DNA of 64,000 bases from Kutzneria sp. CA-103260 (lineage in GTDB: Bacteria; Actinomycetota; Actinomycetes; Mycobacteriales; Pseudonocardiaceae), in NCBI RefSeq assembly GCF_018263855.1, contig NZ_CP073318.1:3038001-3102000 (forward strand), given 5' to 3'. Shown here one piece after another: positions 1 to 34,557 of this stretch (the stretch's first letter is position 1; every line of letters begins with the position of its first letter). The translations under genes and the position numbers were made by a program. The notes under the pieces were generated by a model. That model was not told where the DNA came from. It did no database searches and worked only from the letters and a program-made list of their open reading frames with translations.

Positions 1-127
1 CGGCGACGATCCGGCCGGCGTCCAACGCCAGCAGGGTGAGCAGGGTGCGCACGCGGGGTCCGCCGACGGGGATCTGATCCCCGTCGGCGGACCACATCAG
101 GGTCGTGCCCAGAACGCCGAACCGCAC
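1..127 (-). CDS. SARP/AfsR-type transcriptional regulator, N-terminal fragment
   Basis: Only the first 42 codons are in the window; the gene runs off the left edge. Translation from the GTG at 127 begins MRFGVLGTTLMW and continues with IPVGGPRVRTLLTLLALDAG. This is the N-terminal strand and first helices of the winged-helix DNA-binding domain of SARP/AfsR regulators, where 'vggprvRalLalLll.aG' is typical. It lies 27 nt downstream of the mannosidase gene on the same strand, so the two may be co-transcribed. Whether BTAD, NB-ARC or TPR domains follow cannot be seen. Confidence 0.75.
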   Translation of the reverse strand, partial: MRFGVLGTTLMWSADGDQIPVGGPRVRTLLTLLALDAGRIVA

Positions 128-154
128 TGATCCATTATTCAGGCGGCTTCGTTG

Positions 155-2998
155 TCACATGGCTGACACCGCGAAGATGTGCATGGCCCCCTGGTCGGTC
201 GACGCCGGCAGGGTGACGCTGCGGACCTGCTTGCCGGCGGTGAGGCCGGCGGGTGTGGTGGCGAACAGGTAGGTCTGCAGGCTGGAGCCGTCGGCGGCGT
301 TCCAGTGCCCCAGGGTGGCGGCCACGGTGTCACCGGACTGGGGCGTGCCGACCGCCCAGTCGGTCATGGTGATCGACACCGACGAGGTGCTGCCGTCGGT
401 GTAGGTGACGGTCGCGGCGCCGGTGGCCGGGCCGTTGCTGGCCGAGCCGAGGAACGAGATCCGCGAGGCCGACCGGCCGCCGAGATCGATCACCTGCCCG
501 TTGACCAGCCAGTTGTCCGGCTTGCCGGCCGCCGCCGACGGCCAGGTGAAGCTCATCCCGTTGGCGCTGACGGTGCCGCCGGGGTTGATGCCGGCGGCGG
601 CCAGGGCCTGGGTGGAGTAGCTGTGCCCGGACGAGTCGAGGTTGGCGGTGGTGGCGCTGCCGTCGTTGGACGCGCCGATGTTGTTGAAGCCGTTCTGCCC
701 GTCGGAGAACGACGGCGGCGCGTCACCGGAGCCGGTTCCCCAGGAGGTGGGCGAGCCGGTCATGGTGAAGTCGACGGTGCCGCCGCCCGCCACGAACGAC
801 TCCGGCAGCCAGGTGCGGGACTGCCCGACCCCGTTGACCGCCAACGCGGACACGTACTGGTTGCTGTCCGAAGTGGACGGTGCATTGACCGTCAGCGTCC
901 GGCCGTTGTCGCGGGTGATCACCGTCTGGGTGAAGATCGGGCTGGCCAGCGCCAGCTCGGCCCGGCCGGTGATCGACGGATACATGCCCAGCGCGCCCCA
1001 GACGTAGCTGGCCGACAGCTCGCCGAGGTCGTCGTTGCCCTGCAAGCCGTTGGGGGCGTTGGTGAACAGGCCGGACAGCACCCGCCGGACCAGGGCCTGG
1101 GTCTTGCTGGGCGCGCCGACGAAGTCATACAGGTAGGGCGTGCCGATCGTCGGCTCGTTGGTCAGCCAGGCGTACGCGCCGTTGACCACGCCGGCATTGA
1201 GCTGGCCGAAGAAGGTGTCGAGCCGGCTGGAGACGGCCGCGTTGCCGCCCATCTTGGCCACCAGCGCGGCGATGTTCTGCGGCACCATCCAGCTGTACTG
1301 GGTGCCGGTGCCCTCCACGAACTGGTCGTTGTTGTCGGAGTTGAGGTTGTAGTCGGTGGCGAACAGGCCGTTCTGGTAGCGGGGCGTGATCGACTTGGTG
1401 GCCGGGCTGAACAGGTTCTGCCAGTTCTGGGCCCGCTGCATGAAGGCGGTGTAGTTCGCGGTGTCGCCGAGGCGGCCGGCCAGCTGGGCGATGCCGAAGT
1501 CGTCGATGGCGTACTCCAGCGTGGTGGCCGCCGGCCCCCACACGTTGCCGGTGCCGCGCGGGATGTAGCCGGTGCCGGCGTACTCGTAGAGGCCGCCGCG
1601 GATGGTCTTGGTCGCCGGCAGGGATTGGGTGCCGACCATGCTGGACAGCGCGCCGGCGGCGTCGAAGCTGGTGCCGCCGAAGGAGTAGATGCTGGAGACC
1701 ACCGACTCCAGCGAGTCGCCGTTCATGATGTTGACCGGCACGTTGGCGTACGGCCAGTTGTACCAGCTGCCGGCCTGCGAGGCGTCGTTGACCAGGGACT
1801 GGGCCATGTCGGAGCCGACGCTGGGGAACAGCAGGGTGATCAGCTGGACCTCGGAGCGGTAGACGTCCCAGCCGGAGAAGTTGGCGTACTGGTGGTGGCC
1901 CGCGGCGACGGTGTGGGACTTGCCGTCCATGCCGAGGTATTCGCCGTTGCTGTCGTCGAAGAGGTTGGGGTGCAGCAGCGCGTGGTAGAGGGCGGTGTAG
2001 AAGACGCTCTGCTGGGTCGCCGATCCGCCCGTGGTGCGGACCGCGCCGAGCTTGGCCGCCCACACGCTCGAAGCGTTGGCCGCCACGGTGTCGAAGCTCG
2101 CCGACGGGTTCTCGGCGGCCACATTGGCCGTGGCGTTGGCGGTGCGCACGTAGGACAGCCCAACCCGGACGGTGACGGTGGAACCGGCCGGAAAGGTCAG
2201 GTAGGTGCCGGTGTTCGTGCCCGAGGCGGACGTGCCGCGGGCGGACACCGTGCCGCCGTTCCAGGTGCCGTAGTTGCTGACGGCTTGGTCGAAGCGGGCC
2301 GAGAAGTACACGGTGTAGCTGCCGCCGCCGCAGGTGCCGGTGGTGCGGGCCGATCCGGTGACGGTGTTGCCGCTGATCGACACCGACGAGGCGCTGTCGC
2401 CGTTGGCCGAGCCGCCGGCGTTGATCAGCACGGTCGACGGCTGGCCGGCTGGGAAGGTGAAGCGGGCCATGCCGGTGCGGGCGGTGGCGGTCAGCTCCAC
2501 CTTGGCCCCGTTGGCCAGGGTCACGCCGTAGCGGCCGGGGCTGGCCGATTCGGTGCTGTGGCTGAAGCCGGAGCGGTAGGCGGCGGCGTTGGTCGCCGGG
2601 GAGGACGGCAGTGCGCCGTTGCTGTTCAGACTGCCGGTGTAGGGCATGAACGGCAGGTCGTGGAAGCCGAACGAGCCCTCGCAGCCGGTGCCGTCCAGGT
2701 GGGTGAGGCTGAAGCCGCGGATCTGGTTGGCCGGGTACTCGTAGCCGCCCCAGTTGTCCGCGCCCGAGGCCGTGTTGTAGGTGTCGGGGCTGAACTGGAC
2801 CATGCCGAACGGCGTGGTCGCGCCGGGGAAGGTGTTGCCGTAGCCCTTGCCGAACGGCGGGTAGCTGGCGTTGGGGTTGTTCTGGGTGCCGACGAACGGG
2901 TTGACCGAGCCGACCGGGTCGGCGCTCGCCGCCGCCGGCACGGCCACCAGCACCGACAGAGCCGTCAGGACCGAAACGATGAGTGCAGGGGGTCTCAT
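155..2998 (-). CDS. Secreted GH92 family alpha-mannosidase
   Basis: A 947-aa exported glycoside hydrolase of family 92, calcium-dependent exo-alpha-mannosidases that trim mannosides. A signal peptide (about residues 1-26, ending AAASA) precedes the mature start. Family motifs follow in order: THLDGTGCEG near residue 100, WDVYRSE near 376, EYAIDDFGIAQL, FVEGTGTQYSWMVPQN near 563 (containing the family's catalytic Glu), NEPTIGTPYLYDF, and GNDDLGELSASYVWGALGMYP near 656. The last 170 or so residues form an extra beta-rich domain of the kind found on streptomycete GH92 enzymes, probably carbohydrate-binding. The start ATG lies just below a LacI-type palindrome, which suggests sugar induction. Linkage specificity (alpha-1,2, 1,3 or 1,6) cannot be read from the sequence. 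Confidence 0.93.
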   Translation of the reverse strand: MRPPALIVSVLTALSVLVAVPAAASADPVGSVNPFVGTQNNPNASYPPFGKGYGNTFPGATTPFGMVQFSPDTYNTASGADNWGGYEYPANQIRGFSLTHLDGTGCEGSFGFHDLPFMPYTGSLNSNGALPSSPATNAAAYRSGFSHSTESASPGRYGVTLANGAKVELTATARTGMARFTFPAGQPSTVLINAGGSANGDSASSVSISGNTVTGSARTTGTCGGGSYTVYFSARFDQAVSNYGTWNGGTVSARGTSASGTNTGTYLTFPAGSTVTVRVGLSYVRTANATANVAAENPSASFDTVAANASSVWAAKLGAVRTTGGSATQQSVFYTALYHALLHPNLFDDSNGEYLGMDGKSHTVAAGHHQYANFSGWDVYRSEVQLITLLFPSVGSDMAQSLVNDASQAGSWYNWPYANVPVNIMNGDSLESVVSSIYSFGGTSFDAAGALSSMVGTQSLPATKTIRGGLYEYAGTGYIPRGTGNVWGPAATTLEYAIDDFGIAQLAGRLGDTANYTAFMQRAQNWQNLFSPATKSITPRYQNGLFATDYNLNSDNNDQFVEGTGTQYSWMVPQNIAALVAKMGGNAAVSSRLDTFFGQLNAGVVNGAYAWLTNEPTIGTPYLYDFVGAPSKTQALVRRVLSGLFTNAPNGLQGNDDLGELSASYVWGALGMYPSITGRAELALASPIFTQTVITRDNGRTLTVNAPSTSDSNQYVSALAVNGVGQSRTWLPESFVAGGGTVDFTMTGSPTSWGTGSGDAPPSFSDGQNGFNNIGASNDGSATTANLDSSGHSYSTQALAAAGINPGGTVSANGMSFTWPSAAAGKPDNWLVNGQVIDLGGRSASRISFLGSASNGPATGAATVTYTDGSTSSVSITMTDWAVGTPQSGDTVAATLGHWNAADGSSLQTYLFATTPAGLTAGKQVRSVTLPASTDQGAMHIFAVSAM

Positions 2999-3014
2999 GC
3001 GTAACCGCCTTCGC

Positions 3015-3028
3015 TGACATCGATGTCA
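3015..3028. promoter_or_regulatory. LacI-type operator upstream of the GH92 gene
   Basis: A perfect 14-bp palindrome, TGACATCGATGTCA, with the central CG typical of LacI/GalR-family operators. It ends 17 bp before the mannosidase ATG, so a bound repressor would block transcription or early elongation. No lacI-type gene is visible here; the regulator would be encoded elsewhere. Confidence 0.6.
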
Positions 3029-3064
3029 CACGCGTTGGCGGGACGCTACGGGCAGCGGATTGGT

Positions 3065-3538
3065 CTATACAAGGGCCAGACGGTAGGTCTGTCCAATCAA
3101 GTCAGCGCCGAAGCTGTGGTGGGGCTGTTCGTCGACGAGGGTGAAGCCGCGGGTCAGGTAGAGGTGCCGGGCGGCGTCCAGGCAGTCGTTGGTCCACAGA
3201 CGCACCCCGCGGAAGCCGTGGGAGCGGGCGTGCTCCAGACACGTGTCGACAAGCCGGCCGCCGACGCCGTGACCACGGCCGTCCGGGTGCACGAGCAGGA
3301 TGCGCAGCACCGCCTCGCCGTCGTCGCCGGCCACGCACAGCACGCAGCCGACCCGGCGACCGTCCAGCTCGGCGATCCAGCCGGTGTCCCGGGTCGGGTC
3401 GATGTCGCCGACGATCCCCGCCACCAGCCGCTCGAAGCTGACGTCCCAGCCATACTCGGCGGCGTAGGCCTCGCCGTGGGCCTGCACCATCCAGCCCAGG
3501 TCGCCGGGTCGGTCGGCGGTTCTGATCAGCACACTCAT
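3065..3538 (-). CDS. GNAT family N-acetyltransferase
   Basis: A 157-aa single-domain GNAT protein. Motif A is visible as LRILLVHPDGRGHGVGGRLVD (the acetyl-CoA pyrophosphate loop R-x-x-G-x-G/A), followed by a C-terminal ARHLYLTRGFTLVDE typical of motif B. I chose the ATG at 3538 because GGAGG lies 5 nt before it; the longer frame upstream crosses the TetR gene. It is divergent from that tetR gene, with a shared operator between, so it is the likely regulated target. The substrate is unknown. Confidence 0.85.
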   Translation of the reverse strand: MSVLIRTADRPGDLGWMVQAHGEAYAAEYGWDVSFERLVAGIVGDIDPTRDTGWIAELDGRRVGCVLCVAGDDGEAVLRILLVHPDGRGHGVGGRLVDTCLEHARSHGFRGVRLWTNDCLDAARHLYLTRGFTLVDEQPHHSFGADLIGQTYRLALV

Positions 3539-3548
3539 GCACGCCTCC

Positions 3549-3568
3549 ACTGAAACGACTGTTTCAGT
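3549..3568. promoter_or_regulatory. Inverted-repeat operator between gnat and tetR
   Basis: ACTGAAAC and GTTTCAGT flank GACT, giving perfect 8-bp arms in the 42-bp divergent intergenic region. The right arm abuts the -10 box of the tetR gene. This is the expected position and form for an autoregulatory TetR operator controlling both genes. Confidence 0.7.
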
Positions 3569-3573
3569 AGGAT
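3568..3573 (+). promoter_or_regulatory. -10 box of a leaderless promoter for tetR
   Basis: TAGGAT lies exactly 7 nt before the ATG at 3581 with no Shine-Dalgarno between, so transcription probably starts at or next to the start codon. The box overlaps the last base of the operator. Confidence 0.5.
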
Positions 3574-3580
3574 AGCGGCC

Positions 3581-4105
3581 ATGACCGACCGTCGCGACGA
3601 CCTTCTGCGCCAGGCCTACGCGTACGCGCTGGAACACGGCCTGGCCGACCTGTCGCTGCGCCCGCTGGCGGCGGCGATCGGCTCCAGCCCCCGGGTGCTG
3701 CTGTTCCTGTTCGGCAGCAAGGACGGCCTGGTCCGCGAGCTGCTGGCGCGGGCCCGAGCCGACGAGCTGGCGCTGCTGGACCAGGTGCGCGGCGGAGGCC
3801 TGGCCGAGGTCGCCGAGGCGGTGTGGGCGTGGCTGGCCGCGCCCGAGCACCGGGCACTGCTGACGCTGTGGCTGGAGGGCTACGGCCGTTCCCTGGTCGC
3901 TGCGGACGGCCCGTGGGCGGGGTTCGCCCGCGCCACCGTCGAGGACTGGCTGGCCGTGCTGGCCGACACCGGCGCGGACCGCACGGCGTGCACGCTCGTG
4001 CTCGCGGTGCTGCGGGGCGCGCTGCTGGACCTGCTGGCCACCGGCGACGTGGAGCGCACCACGGCGGCGATCCGTTCGATCATGACCGAATATGGCCAGA
4101 CCTGA
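3581..4105 (+). CDS. TetR family transcriptional regulator
   Basis: A 174-aa protein with an N-terminal TetR-type helix-turn-helix (residues 8-52: ALEHGLADLSLRPLAAAIG then SPRVLLFLFGSKDGLVRELL) and a helical ligand domain rich in Leu and Ala. The recognition-helix region lacks the usual YxYFxxKE and reads LLFLFGSKDG instead, a common variant. It is divergent from the GNAT gene and probably represses both genes through the palindrome between them. The ligand is unknown. Confidence 0.85.
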   Translation: MTDRRDDLLRQAYAYALEHGLADLSLRPLAAAIGSSPRVLLFLFGSKDGLVRELLARARADELALLDQVRGGGLAEVAEAVWAWLAAPEHRALLTLWLEGYGRSLVAADGPWAGFARATVEDWLAVLADTGADRTACTLVLAVLRGALLDLLATGDVERTTAAIRSIMTEYGQT

Positions 4106-4131
4106 GCGTCCCGGTCGGAAATCCTGGACGC

Positions 4132-4899
4132 ATGGAGAACAACAACGCGCTGCGTGCGCTGCCGACGCCGCTGGTGCTGCCCAATGCCTGGGACCCGGCG
4201 TCCGCGGCGGCGATCCAGGCCGCCGGCGCGAAGGCGATCGCCACCACCAGTGGCGGGGTGTCGTGGTCGCGGGGCGTGCCCGACGCCGGCGGCCTCGGGC
4301 GCACCGTCGCGCTGGAGGCGTTGCGCCGGATCGTGCGGGTGGTGACCGTGCCGGTGACCGCCGACATCGAGGGCGGCTACGGCGACACCCCCGAGGAAGT
4401 GGCGTGGACGGTCGCCGAGGTGGCCTCGACCGGGGCGCTCGGCGTGAACATCGAGGACAGCGCCGACGGCGCGCTGCTGGACGTGCAGGCGCAGGTCGAC
4501 CGGCTGGCGGCGGCTCGGGAGGCCGGCGACCTGGTGATCAACGCCCGCACCGACACCTTTCTGATGGGCTCGGGCGACGTGGCCGAGACGCTGGCGCGGG
4601 CCGAGCGGTACGCGGCGGCCGGCGCGGACTCGCTGTTCGTGCCGGGCGTGGTCGACCCGGCGGTGATCAAGGTGCTGGTGGACGGGCCGCTGCCGCTCAA
4701 CGTGATGGCCCATCCCGGCGCGCCGACGATCGCCGAGCTGGCCGCGCTGGGCGTGGCGCGGATCAGCGTCGGCACCGGAATCGCCCAGGCCGCCTACGGG
4801 TTGGCGGCCGCGGCGGCCCGGGAGCTGCTGACCACCGGCACCTACGACACGATGGCCGAGGGCCTGTCCTACGGGGAGCTCAACCAGCTGTTGGCGTGA
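4132..4899 (+). CDS. Isocitrate lyase/PEP mutase superfamily protein
   Basis: A 255-aa TIM-barrel protein of the ICL/PEP-mutase superfamily, which makes or breaks C-C or P-C bonds next to a carboxylate using Mg2+. Visible motifs are LPNAWDPASAAAIQAAGAKA near the N terminus, TADIEGGYGDTPEEV (metal-binding Asp and Glu), GVNIEDS and NARTDTFL. The catalytic Cys loop of true isocitrate lyase (KKCGH) is absent, so isocitrate lyase itself is unlikely. Homologues are often called 2-methylisocitrate lyase or carboxyvinyl-phosphonate mutase-like, but the substrate is undetermined. The ATG at 4132 gives a normal N terminus; the end overlaps the convergent gene by 20 bp. Confidence 0.85.
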   Translation: MENNNALRALPTPLVLPNAWDPASAAAIQAAGAKAIATTSGGVSWSRGVPDAGGLGRTVALEALRRIVRVVTVPVTADIEGGYGDTPEEVAWTVAEVASTGALGVNIEDSADGALLDVQAQVDRLAAAREAGDLVINARTDTFLMGSGDVAETLARAERYAAAGADSLFVPGVVDPAVIKVLVDGPLPLNVMAHPGAPTIAELAALGVARISVGTGIAQAAYGLAAAAARELLTTGTYDTMAEGLSYGELNQLLA

Positions 4900-5977
4900 G
4901 CCTGCGGGCGACCGTGCTCGCCGCCGGCTCCGGCACGCCCACGGCGGCCAGCGTGGCGAGCAGGTCGTCGCGTGGCTCGGCCCAGTCCAGCCGGAGCTTG
5001 CCGGCCACCACTGCCCGGGCCAGCTCGCCGACGACGCCCAGCTCGTCGGCGAGCACTTCCGCGGCCGGAAAGGCGTGGGTCAGCCCGTGGTCCAAGCCGT
5101 CGACCGGCGTGCCGTGCCGGCGAACCAGGTTGCCGATGTCCTCGGCGACGGCGTTGACGGCGATCTCCAGCGGCGCCCACGCGCCCGGCGTCTCACGGTC
5201 GATGCCGGCCAGCCGGGCCGCCCGCTCCGCGACGTGGATCACGCCTTCCCAGTACGGCAGATGGGCCCGCAGCAGCAGGTGGTCCGACCCGCCGGGGCCG
5301 ATCTCCAGCATCCCGGGATCGCCGTCCAGGGTGATCGTCCGCCGGTAGGTGTCGTCTACAATGGACTCCACGCCCGGCACCAGCCTGTTGTCGAGCTGAC
5401 CCAACGTGGCCGTCCAGTCGTAGTCGGGACCGAACGGCATCCGCAGCAGCAGCCCGCCGTCGGCGACCAGCCGGTCGGCCTTGCGGCGCCGGACCCGCAG
5501 GTCGCTGGGCGGCGACCGGAACACCTCCCGCATCGCGCGGTTGAACTGGCGCAGACTGCCGAACCCGGACGCGAACGCCACCTCGGCGATCGTCAGATCG
5601 GTGTCGTCCAGCAGCCGGCGGGCGAAGTGAGCCCGCCTCGACCGCGCGAACCCGTCCGGCGTCACGCCGAGGTGTTCGAGGAACAGCCGCCTCAGGTGTC
5701 GGGCCGACACGCCCAGCCGTGCCCCGACCGCCTCCTCGTTGGCCTCGTCCAACAGGCCGTTGATGATCAGCTGCACCGCTCGGCAGACCAGCTCCGGCGC
5801 GTCCGCGCGCACCGGCCCGGCCACCCGGTAGGGCCGGCACTTCAGGCACGCGCGATACCCGGCGGCCTCGGCCGACGCCGCCAGCTCGAACGTGCGGACG
5901 TTCTCCGCGAGGGGCTTGGCGCCGCAGCCGGGCCGGCAGTAGATGCCGGTCGTGCGCACGGCCGAGTACGTGGTCAC
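4880..5977 (-). CDS. Ada-type methyl-acceptor/AraC regulator with a truncated AlkA glycosylase domain
   Basis: A 365-aa DNA-alkylation repair regulator. The N terminus has the Ada methylphosphotriester zinc site, CRPGC then CLKC (residues about 13-17 and 40-43), whose first Cys would accept the methyl group. An AraC helix-turn-helix follows (ARLGVSARHLRRLFLEHLG, then LTIAEVAFASGFGSLRQFNR). The last part matches the AlkA N-terminal fold but is short: the helix-hairpin-helix with its LPGIGPWTA-like motif and catalytic Asp is not visible, where family fusions usually run to about 490 aa. It is probably a sensor/regulator without glycosylase activity. The start is a GTG at 5977; no upstream Met is in frame. 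Confidence 0.82.
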   Translation of the reverse strand: MTTYSAVRTTGIYCRPGCGAKPLAENVRTFELAASAEAAGYRACLKCRPYRVAGPVRADAPELVCRAVQLIINGLLDEANEEAVGARLGVSARHLRRLFLEHLGVTPDGFARSRRAHFARRLLDDTDLTIAEVAFASGFGSLRQFNRAMREVFRSPPSDLRVRRRKADRLVADGGLLLRMPFGPDYDWTATLGQLDNRLVPGVESIVDDTYRRTITLDGDPGMLEIGPGGSDHLLLRAHLPYWEGVIHVAERAARLAGIDRETPGAWAPLEIAVNAVAEDIGNLVRRHGTPVDGLDHGLTHAFPAAEVLADELGVVGELARAVVAGKLRLDWAEPRDDLLATLAAVGVPEPAASTVARRLTPTAG

Positions 5978-6034
5978 GGCCCAATGGTCGCAACCCGGTG
6001 ATCGGATGGGTGGCCGAACCGGCAGACTCGACGG

Positions 6035-6880
6035 GTGACCGAGAGCCTGCTGCTGACCCAGCCCGTGAACGCACCCGGTGTGCTGCTGCTCGGCGGGGCC
6101 GAGGGCGGCCTGCACGAACGGGACGCCCGGGCGCTGCACGCGGAGGGCTACAACGTGTTGGCGCTGGCCTACTTCGGCCTGCCGACGCTCCCGCCGGGGC
6201 TGGTGGACATCCCGCTGGAGTACTTCTTCGCCGCGGTGGACAAGATCGCCTCGCTGTCCAGCGGCAAGATCGGTGTCGTCGGCGGGTCCCGGGGCGGGGA
6301 GGCTGCGCTGCTGGTCGGCGCGCACGACGACCGGGTCGGGGCGGTGGTCGGCGTGGCCGGCGGCGGGCTGCTGACCCAGGGCGTCGACTACCGCGCCGGC
6401 ACGCTGCTGGACATCCTGGACACGCCGGCGGCGTCGTGGACGCTGCGCCGCAAGCCGCTGGACTACCTGCCCTACCAGGTGCGCGACGAGCTGCGGGAGC
6501 AGGTGGCCCAGGGGCAGCCGGTGCGGCTGCGGCTGGCGTTCCCGGACGTGCCGGTCGACGTGGCGCGGTTCCGGATCCCGGTGGAGCGCATTGACGGCCC
6601 GGTGCTGATGCTGTGCGGCAGCGACGACCAGAACTGGCCGACGGTGGAGTACTGCCAGGCCGCGGCCGACGGGGCCGACAATGTGGAGCTGCGCATCTAC
6701 GAGGGCGCGGGGCACCCGCTCAACGGCCCGCCCGGGCAGCCGTTCACCGACACGCTCTCGCCGGGGCCGGGAGTGATGTTCGAGATGGGCGGCTCGCCGG
6801 AGGTCAACACCAAGGCCCGGGCCGCGGCGTGGGCCGCCACGCTGGAGTTCCTCCAAGAGAACCTGGGCGTCACCCGATAG
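6035..6880 (+). CDS. Alpha/beta hydrolase, BAAT C-terminal/acyl-CoA thioesterase type
   Basis: A 281-aa alpha/beta-hydrolase. The nucleophile elbow is GGSRGGEAALL (Ser near residue 95). The acid loop is CGSDDQNWPT and the His loop is GAGHPLNGPP, the layout of the BAAT C-terminal domain of bile-acid or acyl-CoA:amino-acid acyltransferases and thioesterases. Bacterial members are generally thioesterases or dienelactone-hydrolase-like enzymes of unknown substrate. It is divergent from the Ada-like gene, and DUF3097 follows within 12 bp. Confidence 0.8.
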   Translation: MTESLLLTQPVNAPGVLLLGGAEGGLHERDARALHAEGYNVLALAYFGLPTLPPGLVDIPLEYFFAAVDKIASLSSGKIGVVGGSRGGEAALLVGAHDDRVGAVVGVAGGGLLTQGVDYRAGTLLDILDTPAASWTLRRKPLDYLPYQVRDELREQVAQGQPVRLRLAFPDVPVDVARFRIPVERIDGPVLMLCGSDDQNWPTVEYCQAAADGADNVELRIYEGAGHPLNGPPGQPFTDTLSPGPGVMFEMGGSPEVNTKARAAAWAATLEFLQENLGVTR

Positions 6881-29909: not shown

Positions 29910-30704
29910 ATCGACATCGTCACCAGGCTTCGTCATGCCGGCTGCGTCTTCGCCGAGGACGAGGCCGCGCTGTTGCTGGCAGCCGCCGCTTCGCCCGCCG
30001 AGCTGGAGTCCATGGTGGACAGACGCGTCGGGGGAGAGCCATTGGAGTACATCGTCGGCTGGGCCGAGTTCCGCGGCCTCCGCATCGCCGTCGAGCCCGG
30101 CGTGTTCGTCCCGCGCCGCCGGACCGAGTTCATGGTGGAGCGGGCGTCGGCGCTGGTGTCACCCGGCGGGGTGATCGTCGACCTGTGCTGCGGCACCGGG
30201 GCGATCGGCGTTGCCGTAGCGACCGATATGTCCGAATTCGAGTTGTACGCGGGGGAGATCGACCCAGCAGCCGTCCGCTGCGCCCGCCGTAATGTCGAGC
30301 CGGTTGGCGGACAGGTGTTCCAGGGCGATCTGTACGACGCCTTGCCGGCGGAGATCCGCGGCCGGGTCGACGTGCTGCTGGTGAACGCCCCGTACGTGCC
30401 GACCGACGAGATCGGGATGATGCCGCCCGAGGCACGTGAGCATGAGGCCCGGGTGGCCCTGGACGGCGGCTCGGACGGCCTGGATCTGCATCGCCGAGTC
30501 GCCGCCGACGCCTCAGCGTGGCTCAGGCCCGGCGGACACGTGCTCATCGAGACCAGCGTTCGCCAGGCGGCCTCCACAGCGCGTTTGCTCACCGCCGCCG
30601 GCCTGACCGCCGGGGTAGCGCACTCAGAAGACGTCGACGGCACGATCGCGGTGGGCCGCCGCCCGGTCAGCTCCGCCTACGACGGGGACCCGTCAGAGCA
30701 CTGA
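29910..30704 (+). CDS. PrmC/HemK-like protein N5-glutamine methyltransferase, apparent ATC start
   Basis: A 264-aa class I methyltransferase of the actinobacterial PrmC-related group. It has a short helical N domain (TRLRHAGCVFAEDEAALLLAA), GEPLEYIVGWAEFRGLRIAVE, motif I VDLCCGTGAIGVAVA, and the active-site motif as NAPY (VLLVNAPYVPTDE) where PrmC has NPPY. Between the in-frame stop at 29874 and TTG 29973 there is no ATG, GTG or TTG. A start at TTG 29973 would delete the conserved first helices. AGGGGAG (29896-29902) sits 7 nt before ATC 29910, exactly where homologues start with Met. The start is therefore inferred to be ATC, unless there is a sequence error. Confidence 0.8.
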   Translation: MDIVTRLRHAGCVFAEDEAALLLAAAASPAELESMVDRRVGGEPLEYIVGWAEFRGLRIAVEPGVFVPRRRTEFMVERASALVSPGGVIVDLCCGTGAIGVAVATDMSEFELYAGEIDPAAVRCARRNVEPVGGQVFQGDLYDALPAEIRGRVDVLLVNAPYVPTDEIGMMPPEAREHEARVALDGGSDGLDLHRRVAADASAWLRPGGHVLIETSVRQAASTARLLTAAGLTAGVAHSEDVDGTIAVGRRPVSSAYDGDPSEH

Positions 30705-31245
30705 GGTCGATCGTGACCTCATGGCCGCCAACGACGCCGGTGTAGGTGCCGGTGATCGGTGACGTGAAGTGGTACTGACCGGTGTCGTCGAGGGTGTAGA
30801 CGGTCAGACTGTGCGGGTTCTCCTGGAGGTCGATCACCCAAGTGGTCGGGATGCCGTTGGCCGCGTATTCGGCGGGCTTCTTGATGTAGTCACGAGCAGC
30901 CGACTCGCCGGGCGACACGATCTCGACAGCGAGCAGAATCTCGTCGCCACGCACGCGCACCTGGTCACCGACCTCCGACGAGCACACCACGAGGTCTGGA
31001 ATCCGCCGAGGCGACGGGCCGGTCAGTTCGGCCTCGAACTCCACCATCGCTTCCAGCTCATCTGGCAGCTGTTCGTCCAGGCAGTTCGCCAGGCGACGGG
31101 CCGCTTTGATGTGCGGGCCAGCAAGGCGGATCATCACGAGCAGTCGACCGTCCTCGATCTCCAAGCGGTGCGAGCTGTCGGTAGGCAGCCCGTCGAATTC
31201 CTCGATGCTGATCGGCAGGCCCTCACGCGCGAGTCCTGAGCTCAC
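30667..31245 (-). CDS. Uma2 family (DUF820) putative endonuclease
   Basis: A 192-aa protein of the Uma2/DUF820 group, which has a PD-(D/E)XK restriction-like fold. Visible are LPISIEEFDGLPTDSSHRLEIEDGRLLVM, then RIPDLVVCSSE (Asp) and EILLAVEIVSPGESAARDYIKKPAEYAANGI (the E-x-V-S-P...D-x-x-K-x-x-x-Y signature). Its cellular role is unknown; copies are often numerous in actinobacteria and cyanobacteria. The GTG at 31245 has GGAG 8 nt upstream. Its end overlaps the convergent methyltransferase by 38 bp. Confidence 0.85.
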   Translation of the reverse strand: MSSGLAREGLPISIEEFDGLPTDSSHRLEIEDGRLLVMIRLAGPHIKAARRLANCLDEQLPDELEAMVEFEAELTGPSPRRIPDLVVCSSEVGDQVRVRGDEILLAVEIVSPGESAARDYIKKPAEYAANGIPTTWVIDLQENPHSLTVYTLDDTGQYHFTSPITGTYTGVVGGHEVTIDLSALTGPRRRRS

Positions 31246-31332
31246 TGGGCACGCTCCGATCGGTTGGGTCAACGGGGACGCCCTCAGCATGCCGCAACTC
31301 TGACGACAGGACTGAGCCGAATGGCCTAGCGG

Positions 31333-31370: not shown

Positions 31371-31398
31371 ACTTAACATAATGTAGATTATCGGCCTT
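31371..31398 (-). other. XerC/XerD recombination site (dif-like)
   Basis: Read on the minus strand the 28 bp are AAGGCCGATAA, a 6-bp centre TCTACA, and TTATGTTAAGT. The last arm matches 10 of 11 positions of the E. coli dif XerD arm (TTATGTTAAAT). The first matches 6 of 11 of the XerC arm, including the terminal ATAA. The arm/6-bp/arm geometry is that of dif. If it is the chromosomal dif, this window lies at the replication terminus. Otherwise it is a core site of the neighbouring recombinase. Confidence 0.6.
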
Positions 31399-31626
31399 AT
31401 GTCTCACGGCGTCTCAGCCTGGACTGAAGGCGTCTGAAACGGCCGCCTGGGCGTCAGATTCGCCCGTACGGACAACCTGCTCCGTGGCGTGTGCGCCGAC
31501 GGCTGTCGTCGGCGTGATGGCGTCCGGGACAGGCCGGACGGGTCGACAGGGCGCTCAGTGGCGGTGTGAGCACGGCAGATCCCCCAGGAGAGACCGCCGA
31601 GTAGCCCGCCCTAGGCAAGCGGACTT

Positions 31627-31654
31627 TTCATGCATAATGGCGATTATGCAGCAA
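31627..31654. other. Second dif-like/recombinase core site
   Basis: TTCATGCATAA, spacer TGGCGA, TTATGCAGCAA. Its core CATAATGGCGATTAT (31633-31647) differs from the first site's CATAATGTAGATTAT (31377-31391) at only two of 15 positions, in the same orientation and 256 bp away. It also forms an 8-bp-arm palindrome, TGCATAAT-GGCG-ATTATGCA. Confidence 0.5.
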
Positions 31655-31894: not shown

Positions 31895-31969
31895 CACGAC
31901 CGGCGGGAAGAACTCCAAGATCACCATCGTGCGCGCAAAACTGTCAGAGGTGTGCTGTACAAGATCCAC

Positions 31970-32959
31970 ATGAGGCTTGTGGACGCGCAGCAGGCGTTCT
32001 TCGCGGCCCGGCGGCCGCGCAAGGACTCGCCGCACACGACCGACGCCTACCGGCGCGACCTGGCGGGGATCACGGCGCTGCTGGTGGAGGAGATCGGCGG
32101 CGAGCCGGAGATGCTGCTGGTGGAGGACCTGACGGCGCAGTCGTTGCGGACAGCGTTCGGCGCGTTCGCGGACACCCACGCCAAGTCCTCGGTGCTGCGG
32201 GCCTGGTCGACCTGGAACCAGTTCCTGACCTTCTGCGTGGCCGACGGCCTGCTGCCGGGCAACCCGATCGGCGCGGTGGCCCGCCCGCGCACCCCTCCCC
32301 TGTCACCCAAGCCGTTGCGCGGCGAGGACACGCCGGAGCAGCTGCTGAAGGCGGCGGCGCACGGCGACCGCAAGGCCCGGGACCCGTGGCCGGAGCGGGA
32401 CGTGCTGGTGATCGCACTGGGCCTGCTGGCCGGTCTGCGCAGCGCGGAGATGCGCACTCTCACGGTGAACTCCCTGGTGGGGCGGCCGGGTGAGATGCGG
32501 CTGCACGTCCACGGCAAGGGCAGCCGGGACCGGTCGATCCCGGTGGAGCCGTCGATGGAGAAGGTGATCGACGCCTACCTGGCGTCGTGCCGGACCCGGT
32601 TCCCACAGGAACGGTTCGGGCGCGGCGCTCCCCTGCTGCGGGACCGTTCGGGCGGGGCGATCGGTCGCGGGGCGCTGGAGTACCTGGTGAAGTCGTGTTA
32701 CCGGTGGGCGGGTCTGCACGACCGGGTGCCGGTGGGAGCGAGTCTGCACGCGCTGCGCCACACCTTCGCGACGCGGTTGGCCGAGGACGGGGCGACGGCG
32801 TCGGAGATCATGGCTCTGCTGGGCCACGCGAGCCTGGCCACGAGCCAGAACTACATCGAGGCCACCGGTCGGGAGCAGCGGGCGGCGGTGGCGAGCAACC
32901 GGACGTACCGTGCGCTCGAGGATGTCGAGACTCCCCCGTCGGCGTCGACCCCATCGTGA
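31970..32959 (+). CDS. Tyrosine recombinase (XerC/XerD-like)
   Basis: A 329-aa site-specific recombinase. The N-terminal SAM-like core-binding domain (residues 1-100) includes SPHTTDAYRRDLAGITALL. The catalytic domain has the full set: Arg in GLLAGLRSAEMRTL, Lys in HVHGKGSRDRSIPV, HxxR in LHALRHTFATRL, His in LLGHASL, and the nucleophile Tyr in SQNYIEATG. The size and layout fit XerC/D or an integrase of a small element. No phage or conjugation genes are nearby. It lies downstream of two dif-like sites, so they are its likely substrates. ATG 31970 fits the fold; an in-frame GTG at 31952 would add 6 residues. Confidence 0.88.
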   Translation: MRLVDAQQAFFAARRPRKDSPHTTDAYRRDLAGITALLVEEIGGEPEMLLVEDLTAQSLRTAFGAFADTHAKSSVLRAWSTWNQFLTFCVADGLLPGNPIGAVARPRTPPLSPKPLRGEDTPEQLLKAAAHGDRKARDPWPERDVLVIALGLLAGLRSAEMRTLTVNSLVGRPGEMRLHVHGKGSRDRSIPVEPSMEKVIDAYLASCRTRFPQERFGRGAPLLRDRSGGAIGRGALEYLVKSCYRWAGLHDRVPVGASLHALRHTFATRLAEDGATASEIMALLGHASLATSQNYIEATGREQRAAVASNRTYRALEDVETPPSASTPS

Positions 32960-32989: not shown

Positions 32990-33352
32990 GTGAAGTACCT
33001 GCTGATGATCTACATGAACGACGAGACGTGGGCCGGGCTGTCGGCGGCGGAGCGGGACGCGGTGATGGCCGGGCACGACGAGTTCCAGCGGATCACCCGG
33101 GAGACCGGGGAGCTGTTGAACACCCACGCGCTGGGCTCGCCGTCGACGACCGCGGTGGTGCGGGTGCGGGACGGGGAGCCGGTGGTGACCGACGGCCCTT
33201 TTCTGGAGGCGAAGGAGTATCTGGCGGGGTATTACCTGATGGACTGTGAGTCGCGCGAGCGGGCGGTGGAGTTGGCGGGGATGATTCCGGACGCCCGGTA
33301 CAGCGCGACGGAGGTGTGGCCGGTCATGTTCTCGTCGGGGGTGGATGTGTGA
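32990..33352 (+). CDS. DGPF/YCII-related protein, ECF42 partner
   Basis: A 120-aa YCII-like protein: KYLLMIYMNDETW at the N terminus and the diagnostic VTDGPFLEAKEYLAGYYLMD, giving the DGPF motif. DGPF proteins are encoded next to ECF42 sigma factors and are thought to accompany their signalling in a way not yet resolved. The GTG at 32990 has GAGGAGGAG just upstream. The stop overlaps the sigma-factor start (GTGA), so the pair is translationally coupled. Confidence 0.9.
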   Translation: MKYLLMIYMNDETWAGLSAAERDAVMAGHDEFQRITRETGELLNTHALGSPSTTAVVRVRDGEPVVTDGPFLEAKEYLAGYYLMDCESRERAVELAGMIPDARYSATEVWPVMFSSGVDV

Positions 33353-34557
33353 GTGGTGAGGTCGAGGGCCTGCTGCGCGAGTTGGCGCCGCAGGTCCTGG
33401 CCGCGTTGACGCGGCGGCACGGGCAGTTCGACGCGTGTGAGGACGCCGTGCAGGAGGCGTTGCTGGCGGCGTCGCAGCAGTGGCCGGCGGAGGGTGTGCC
33501 GGACAACCCCCGTGGCTGGCTGTTGACGGTGGGATCGCGGCGGCTGGCGGACGTGTGGCGCAGTGAGAGCGCGCGGCGGCGGCGTGAGGAGGCGGTGTTC
33601 GCCACCGAGGTCGAAGACGCGGAGGTGCCGGCGAAGGACGACACGTTGACGTTGTTGTTCCTGTGCTGCCATCCGGAGTTGACGGCGGCGTCGCAGGTGG
33701 CGTTGACGGTGCGGGCGGTGGGCGGGTTGACCACGGCTCAGGTGGCGCGGGCGTTCCTGGTGCCGGAGGCGACGATGGCCCAGCGGATCTCGCGGGCCAA
33801 GCAGAAGATCAAGAAGGCTGGGGCGCAGTTCTCGATGCCGCCGGAGGGTGAGCGGGACGAGCGGCTGCGGGCAGTGCTGCACGTGCTGTACCTGATCTTC
33901 AACGAGGGCTACACGGCCACCGCCGGGGACCAGTTGTTGCAGGGTGAGCTGACCGGTGAGGCGATCCGGCTGACGCGGGCCGTGCGCACGCTGCTGCCCG
34001 ATGACGGCGAGGTGGCGGGTCTGTTGTCGTTGATGTTGCTGACGGAGTCGCGGCGGGCGGCGCGGTCGCGGCCGGACGGGTCGTTGGTGCCGTTGGCCGA
34101 GCAGGATCGGTCGTCGTGGGATGCGGCGGCGATCGCCGAGGGTGTGAAGCTGGTCAGCGAGGCCTTGTCCACTTCCCGGTTGGGGCCGTTCCAGTTGCAG
34201 GCGGCGATCGCGGCGGTGCATGCGGAGGCGCCGTCGTCGGAGGAGACGGACTGGGCGGAGATCGTCGGCCTGTACGGGTTGTTGGCGCGGATGGCGCCGA
34301 ATCCGATGGTGACGTTGAACCACGCGGTGGCGGTGGCGATGGTGCGCGGGCCGCGGGCGGGGTTGGCGATGTTGGCCGAGCTGGAGGGTGACGAGCGGGT
34401 GTCGGAGCATCACCGGGTGGCGGCGGTGCGGGCGCATCTGCTGGAGATGGACGGGGATGCGGTCGGGGCGCGGGAGTCGTATCTGGCGGCGGCGCGGTTG
34501 ACGTTGAGCATGCCGGAGCAGCGTTATCTGCTGGCGAGGGCCGACCGCCTCTCTTGA
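33349..34557 (+). CDS. ECF42-type RNA polymerase sigma factor
   Basis: A 402-aa extracytoplasmic-function sigma factor. Region 2 (residues about 10-75: FDACEDAVQEALLAASQQW, then PRGWLLTVGSRRLADVWRSE) and region 4 (about 110-165: GLTTAQVARAFLVPEATMAQRISRAKQKI) are followed by a 220-residue helical C-terminal extension. That extension (LYLIFNEGYTATAGD, LTRAVRTLLPDDGEVAGLL, VTLNHAVAVAMVRGP) is typical of ECF42. There is no anti-sigma gene; the extension and the coupled DGPF protein take its place in this group. Confidence 0.92.
   Translation: MSGEVEGLLRELAPQVLAALTRRHGQFDACEDAVQEALLAASQQWPAEGVPDNPRGWLLTVGSRRLADVWRSESARRRREEAVFATEVEDAEVPAKDDTLTLLFLCCHPELTAASQVALTVRAVGGLTTAQVARAFLVPEATMAQRISRAKQKIKKAGAQFSMPPEGERDERLRAVLHVLYLIFNEGYTATAGDQLLQGELTGEAIRLTRAVRTLLPDDGEVAGLLSLMLLTESRRAARSRPDGSLVPLAEQDRSSWDAAAIAEGVKLVSEALSTSRLGPFQLQAAIAAVHAEAPSSEETDWAEIVGLYGLLARMAPNPMVTLNHAVAVAMVRGPRAGLAMLAELEGDERVSEHHRVAAVRAHLLEMDGDAVGARESYLAAARLTLSMPEQRYLLARADRLS

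Follow-up and report, generated by a model that had tools for sequence, protein, structure and literature searches.

At the replication terminus of the Kutzneria sp. CA-103260 chromosome, the canonical dif site is accompanied by a palindromic 28-bp site of the same layout and by the gene of a third Xer-like tyrosine recombinase. We propose, with a probability of roughly 70%, that this recombinase (31952-32959) and the palindrome constitute a plasmid-type single-recombinase resolution system that stands beside XerCD/dif and would be able to replace it. The sites, their conservation, the matched changes in their arms, the co-occurrence of gene and palindrome, the nearness to dif and the pattern of loss are all read directly from sequence, and the proposed function is a prediction drawn from them. 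The window, that is the whole stretch of 64,000 bp that was analysed, covers positions 3,038,001-3,102,000 of NZ_CP073318.1, the single contig (11,609,901 bp) of a Kutzneria-group genome; among named organisms, the closest matches to its recombinase come from Kutzneria, with 92-93% identity. The following features (window positions) are relevant here:

31371-31398, minus strand: chromosomal dif of the canonical actinobacterial type, assigned by its sequence, its single copy, its near-antipodal position to dnaA and the presence of dif in the loci of recombinase relatives

31399-31626, no strand: spacer of 228 bp between dif and the palindrome, with no listed ORF of at least 100 aa inside

31627-31654, no strand: 11-6-11 palindrome, the proposed recombination site of the adjacent recombinase, assigned by the palindromes in relatives' loci, the matched arm changes and its staying by dif

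31952-32959, plus strand: gene of the third Xer-like tyrosine recombinase, a complete ORF (Phage_integrase, 65.3 bits) with a GTG start and an alternative ATG at 31970

The site at 31371-31398 reads AAGGCCGATAATCTACATTATGTTAAGT on the minus strand, and one of its arms is presumably identical to the XerD arm of Escherichia coli dif at 10 of 11 positions. It is the one match to a dif pattern (up to 3 mismatches) in the window, where shuffled sequences let us expect 0, and the sole match when the dif-type pattern was searched genome-wide. Its distance to dnaA is 5.712 Mb, half of the genome being 5.805 Mb. The supposition of an earlier note on this DNA that the site is the chromosomal dif and that the window lies at the replication terminus was thereby confirmed. 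The site also agrees with the dif of Frankia alni as quoted in PMC3025954. GC skew in 40 stretches of 20 kb has the expected signs on the left (mean +0.0075) and on the right (mean -0.0115), a difference that is not significant (p = 0.10 by t-test and 0.06 by rank test; 0.12-0.14 for the 20 evenly spread stretches alone), and counts of GGGNAGGG in the same 40 stretches revealed no clear pattern when judged by eye. The search for canonical xerC and xerD that had been recommended found both of them elsewhere in the genome: a XerD gene at 31,476 (347 bits, cut-off 330), followed by a gene whose translation reads as parA, and a XerC gene at 10,337,424, for which XerC is the best model with 289 bits, below the cut-off of 335, and whose neighbours read from their translations as dprA and a sigma factor. 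Since both enzymes are encoded elsewhere, the dif at 31371-31398 presumably serves XerC and XerD.

The second site (31627-31654) reads TTCATGCATAA TGGCGA TTATGCAGCAA and is symmetric at 9 of 11 arm positions. It lies 256 bp from dif, and the cores of the two sites are identical at 13 of 15 positions; both values had been given correctly before. The initial description as two dif-like sites holds in so far as both sites are real and the first one is dif. The second one, however, is a palindrome and not a copy of dif, and is most likely to be read as the site of the adjacent third Xer-like enzyme. That the two sites share one orientation, as had been pointed out, has little meaning for an almost symmetric sequence. 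In the 11,609,901-bp genome, the motif ATAAT-N4-ATTAT is present at two places only, namely in dif and in the second site, compared to 0.063 occurrences expected from base composition, and a chance origin of the pair was rejected for this reason. No further copy of dif or of the palindrome was found by exact core in the whole Kutzneria genome, and 760 kb of this genome that were scanned for such palindromes contained one weak candidate (8/11). Excision of the 256-bp segment, which had been considered, is not supported in view of the different 6-bp centres of the two sites (TGTAGA in dif, TGGCGA in the palindrome) and of the presence of both sites in the six other genomes of the genus in our sample (G001-G006). 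Neither did the assumption of an integrated element that exploits Xer (IMEX) stand up: neither the arms nor the centres of the two sites agree, there is no matching second site and no extra exact-core copy of either site in the genome, the enclosed 228-bp spacer holds no listed ORF of at least 100 aa, and the arrangement is conserved across several families.

The complete tyrosine recombinase gene nearby had been recognised correctly, and the distance of 315 bp reported for it fits the ATG at 31970. Its product of 335 residues misses the cut-offs of both canonical models (143 of 335 bits for XerC, 112 of 330 bits for XerD) and reaches 54 bits with the XerS model (cut-off 267). We class the enzyme as neither canonical XerC nor canonical XerD; because the genome's own XerC also scores below its cut-off, the phylogenetic tree described below weighs more in this assignment than the cut-offs. 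Residues R163, K189, H266, R269, H292 and Y301, which we take to be the catalytic R-K-H-R-H-Y set, are invariant in all 17 rows of the alignment, and dN/dS values of 0.15 and 0.10 were determined in comparison to two close relatives. These results are in agreement with a gene under purifying selection and an intact catalytic set. An AlphaFold model of the recombinase is of modest quality (pLDDT 74.5, pTM 0.54); Foldseek ranks XerA and XerH nearest to it and Cre lower, which supports the fold only. By sequence, XerD is the solved structure nearest to the family, and the family profile also matches the structure of XerH. Adjacent to the locus are a Uma2-family gene on one side and, on the other, a YCII-domain gene and then a sigma-70-like gene (window positions 30667-31290 and 32990-34557).

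In the loci of recombinase relatives (the best 80 of 145, with flanks) the palindrome lies upstream of the gene in 79 cases, and 78 loci contain a dif-like site when 6 mismatches in 25 positions are tolerated. Wherever dif is present, the palindrome is located between dif and the gene (78/78). The distance from dif to the palindrome ranges from 255 to 4216 bp with a median of 471 bp in these 78 loci and falls between 250 and 650 bp in 75 of them; the gene match begins at a distance of 50-4613 bp from the palindrome. A comparison of 60 relatives gives the same picture: 24 of them have the recombinase (identity of about 50% or more). Each of these 24 also has a palindrome in the vicinity of dif, the maximum distance being about 3.3 kb; 15 show exact ATAATN4ATTAT pairs, and 9 were read by a looser rule. 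Two exact ATAATN4ATTAT sites were found in none of the 36 relatives without the recombinase, among which we count G042 with a 40%-identical copy on a plasmid, and the looser rule revealed no palindrome within about 5 kb on either side of dif in 11 of these 36. Additional candidate palindromes in recombinase-bearing genomes (L209 with 7/11; L226 with 9/11 and other arms) were left uncounted, and at L046 merely 175 bp precede the gene. An integron-like cassette platform was rejected, as the loci with an upstream candidate palindrome have a single one, except for L093 with two.

The sole locus of the 80 that lacks both sites is that of Actinoalloteichus caeruleus (L104; genome G028). A recombinase with neither site nearby, which the earlier note had named as a refuting case, thus does occur, yet the dif/palindrome pair is intact in this genome at a distance of 531 kb from the gene. 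The pair lies 1.57 Mb from the gene in G018, and in G011, G016 and G030 the gene is on one contig and the pair on another. No upstream palindrome is present at L104, L164, L167, L169, L171, L172 and L173; among the genomes concerned, G011, G016, G018, G023, G028 and G030 have dif/palindrome pairs elsewhere. We conclude from these comparisons that the palindrome appears to track dif rather than the gene. In Saccharothrix luteola the dif/palindrome/recombinase locus is present on two contigs (L096, L097) that are identical over positions 1-6077 and then diverge abruptly; this doubled locus may be due to a duplication of the terminus, to a large inverted repeat or to an artefact of the assembly.

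The position of the palindrome relative to the gene could also mean that it is only an operator of the recombinase gene, bound by the recombinase itself or by another dimeric regulator, and that it came to lie near dif by historical chance. Being symmetric and located 50-70 bp ahead of the gene match in many Amycolatopsis and Lentzea loci and 30-102 bp upstream of the gene in 7 of the 17 plasmid regions described below, the palindrome would be well placed for such a function. However, in the five genomes with a remote gene, hundreds of kb off or on another contig, the palindrome is found 0.4-0.6 kb from dif, and its 11-6-11 layout with ATAA/TTAT inner edges is like that of dif. A simple operator was rejected because the palindrome remains by dif where the gene is remote, and we consider it unlikely that regulation is the only function of the site; autoregulation may take place alongside recombination at the palindrome.

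The arms of the palindrome provide further support for the resolution system. The 143 loci yielded 96 distinct 28-mers, or 88 with strand disregarded, a few genomes being represented twice via two loci. Across these 88 sites the outer arm positions are symmetric in 499 of 616 cases, compared to 422 ± 8 in arm shuffles with a maximum of 452 in 5000 shuffles; as the sites had been preselected (exact inner ATAA/TTAT and at least 7/11 symmetric) and the rows are related, this excess is descriptive and carries no formal probability. Arm positions 3, 4, 6 and 7 show paired substitutions, as in GCATAA/TTATGC and GGATAA/TTATCC, and the symmetry drops off beyond the arms. The palindrome arms thus appear to change in a matched way across the 88 distinct sites. 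The Lentzea sites are among the least symmetric (7/11), and the sites of G472 and G271 are symmetric at 7/11 and 8/11. Self-complementary centres are absent from the 88 sites, a number too small to be informative.

A search at 1e-25 gave 60 plasmid records with homologues of the recombinase (32-41% identity), which come from Mycobacterium, Mycolicibacterium, Rhodococcus, Dietzia, Prescottella and Corynebacterium, and 13 of the 15 nameable rows have only tyrosine-type recombinase/integrase or a similar term as product label. Seventeen plasmid regions were fetched by choice out of the 60 records: a clear palindrome is present 30-879 bp upstream of the gene in 12, a marginal one in 1, and none that is clear in 4. 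In a phage collection, the identity amounts to 26-30% among the 15 matches listed of 172 records. On a Mycolicibacterium crocinum plasmid (G042:C2), two palindromes that differ in their centres are separated by about 17 kb (L227:2709 and L195, the latter 46 bp upstream of the gene). In the tree, plasmid and chromosomal members of this third family group in a single clade that is separate from the canonical XerC and XerD (100/100); the tree is midpoint-rooted, two long plasmid branches are flagged, and the canonical rows comprise about 200-230 residues. The inner order of the third-family clade is poorly resolved, so that a plasmid source, and with it the direction from plasmid to chromosome, is presumed. 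The lone Kribbella row in the tree is placed inside the Kutzneria/Amycolatopsis group (98/93), which suggests a transfer between orders.

Given homologues on mycobacterial, rhodococcal and corynebacterial plasmids, the Kribbella placement and a patchy presence (24 of 60 relatives and 22 of 61 genomes in the family f31 discussed below), one might regard the locus as what is left of a mobile element or plasmid after its integration near dif, kept by drift or as an attachment site. This is improbable in our opinion, since the Kutzneria genome has no other copy of either site by exact core and the recombinase combines dN/dS values of 0.10-0.15 with invariant catalytic residues. Moreover, gene and site are retained over several families, even when they are apart, and also where dif and XerC were not found.

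The latter situation became apparent from the wider distribution of the presumed resolution system. The family profile at 1e-40 matches 35 of 394 genomes of the class, and 27 of the 35 belong to one family, f31, perhaps the Micromonosporaceae, in a sample of which 22 of 61 genomes are positive at 1e-60. There are 26 f31 positives at E < 1e-100; G177 and G418 were left out of inspection, and G461 is known from 14-mers only. In f31 genomes with dif the palindrome lies 300-951 bp from dif in all 18 that were read, and the site pair is present in 15 of the 15 f31 genomes among the matches listed. The palindrome is found on the opposite side of dif in 4 of the 18 f31 genomes and at L177, L178 and L231, which fall outside the usual pattern of both main families; in these seven genomes the nearness is kept and the side is not.

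Ten f31 genomes (G112, G207, G271, G315, G363, G379, G425, G470, G472 and G490) belong to one subclade in which dif was not found (termed dif-less here). All exact ATAA-N6-TTAT sites of these genomes were read with their flanks and none is dif: the best one has 5 mismatches of 21 scored positions, compared to a yardstick of 0-3 mismatches in 113 of 116 loci. The absence comes from a motif search that included drafts, in which a strongly diverged dif could escape outside the 400 kb read in G472; within these 400 kb around the G472 palindrome there is no dif-like site. Each of the ten genomes has one match to canonical Xer (227-280 bits), whereas two were found in each of 12 comparison genomes (216-316 bits, the lowest value being a partial match in G049). 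The retained canonical Xer fits the XerD model better than the XerC model in both of the two tested, and all ten are located outside the XerC clade in the tree. In G472 (L335, 454-2391) the XerD-like gene adjoins a gene reading as parA; its retention in a genome in which XerC and dif were not found hints at a role apart from dif recombination.

Recombinase and palindrome are kept in all ten genomes, with the centre GTGCGA in eight of them; centres are variable elsewhere. On the complete chromosome of G472, half of which amounts to 3.752 Mb, the palindrome and dnaA are separated by about 3.748 Mb. No dnaA was detected in those stretches of G490 that were read, so that the mid-contig palindrome of G490 proves nothing. 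The seven of the ten dif-less genomes that are included in the tree form one clade (100/100). One subclade therefore appears to have lost dif and XerC and to keep the recombinase and its palindrome at the terminus. A putative dif is reported for Actinoplanes SE50/110, a strain outside our sample, in PMC3364876; the loss is thus not universal among Actinoplanes-like bacteria. Other XerC-like genes with upstream 11-6-11 palindromes that have different arms and are 9-11/11 symmetric occur in G207 and G112 (L385:1351, L393:1386, L386:1324), which suggests further recombinase/palindrome pairs in these genomes, and another XerC-like recombinase (G472:C1:3783268-3784125, 126 bits) is located about 0.7 kb from the third recombinase in G472.

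A recombinase that acts at the palindrome could also perform another task at the terminus, such as the unlinking of catenated sisters, the positioning of termination or the unloading of condensin. The terminus location, the coexistence with XerCD/dif and the retention of the XerD-like gene alone in the dif-less clade would suit such tasks. XerH has been suggested to aid decatenation (PMC5357621), and according to a statement cited in PMC13342612, SMC is unloaded by XerD at the dif site of Bacillus subtilis. However, plasmid homologues with the same type of site would fit multimer resolution, and the loss of dif and XerC would be explained most simply by a takeover of dimer resolution. We therefore hold another task to be very unlikely.

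A symmetric site, one enzyme and one copy per chromosome where the sisters last separate correspond to the design of a dimer-resolution system, and this contribution proposes the following model for the resolution system. At the palindrome (31627-31654), each of the two near-identical 11-bp arms would be bound by one monomer of the recombinase. The complexes assembled in this way on the two sister chromosomes would then synapse, and strands would be exchanged across the 6-bp centre, possibly with a dependence on FtsK. A dimeric chromosome would in this way be converted to two monomers by the third recombinase, in parallel to XerCD at the neighbouring dif. The module presumably descends from, or has common ancestry with, an actinobacterial plasmid module, and could fully take over, as in the dif-less subclade. 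It speaks against our model that dif is present in the genomes apart from the ten dif-less ones, and that the 12 of them checked also have XerC and XerD, which leaves the need for a second system unexplained; it is a guess that both systems are kept for a particular stage of hyphal or sporulation division.

Among known systems, XerL/dif of the Legionellales is similar by description: as characterised in PMC9765430, it has one recombinase, a site with long uninterrupted inverted-repeat arms near the terminus, a gene that is sometimes far away and a plasmid-borne orthologue in Coxiella, all of which have counterparts here. According to the same paper, however, the Legionellales have no recognised XerCD or dif, whereas our palindrome lies beside a canonical dif in a genome with XerC and XerD. 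XerH/difH and XerS/difSL also combine a single recombinase with a site near its gene but, as described in PMC5357621, stand in for XerCD and have less symmetric sites. The resemblance to single-recombinase systems that the earlier note had seen is valid for the arrangement; XerC and XerD are nevertheless encoded elsewhere, and the adjacent enzyme most likely acts on the second site. As a candidate member of the class of single-recombinase Xer systems, the locus offers a complete catalytic set and a putative terminus site, with XerCD still present in the same genome. With XerCD/dif it shares a 28-bp site of 11-6-11 layout, inner ATAA/TTAT, the terminus location and the enzyme fold, but XerCD/dif uses two enzymes on an asymmetric site, and the third family is a separate clade. 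Cre/loxP of plasmid P1 employs one recombinase and a palindromic site for dimer resolution and is similar in these features and in the plasmid-borne homologues. loxP has an 8-bp spacer and 13-bp arms, in contrast to the 6-bp centre and 11-bp arms found here, and Cre ranks below XerA and XerH in Foldseek.

We found no earlier description of a recombinase/palindrome system beside dif in the open-licence PMC literature. Single-recombinase Xer systems have so far been described as alternatives to XerCD/dif, whereas here both kinds adjoin. It appears rather probable from the compared genomes that many actinobacteria run XerCD/dif together with an independent, plasmid-derived single-recombinase/palindrome system at the terminus and that one lineage has abandoned XerC and dif and relies on the second system. 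If this is true, the annotation of the plasmid homologues would be sharpened, GC-rich bacteria would provide a new family of recombinases with palindromic sites, and the swap of a core chromosome-maintenance system would be directly testable, with the coexisting and the replaced state both present in living lineages.
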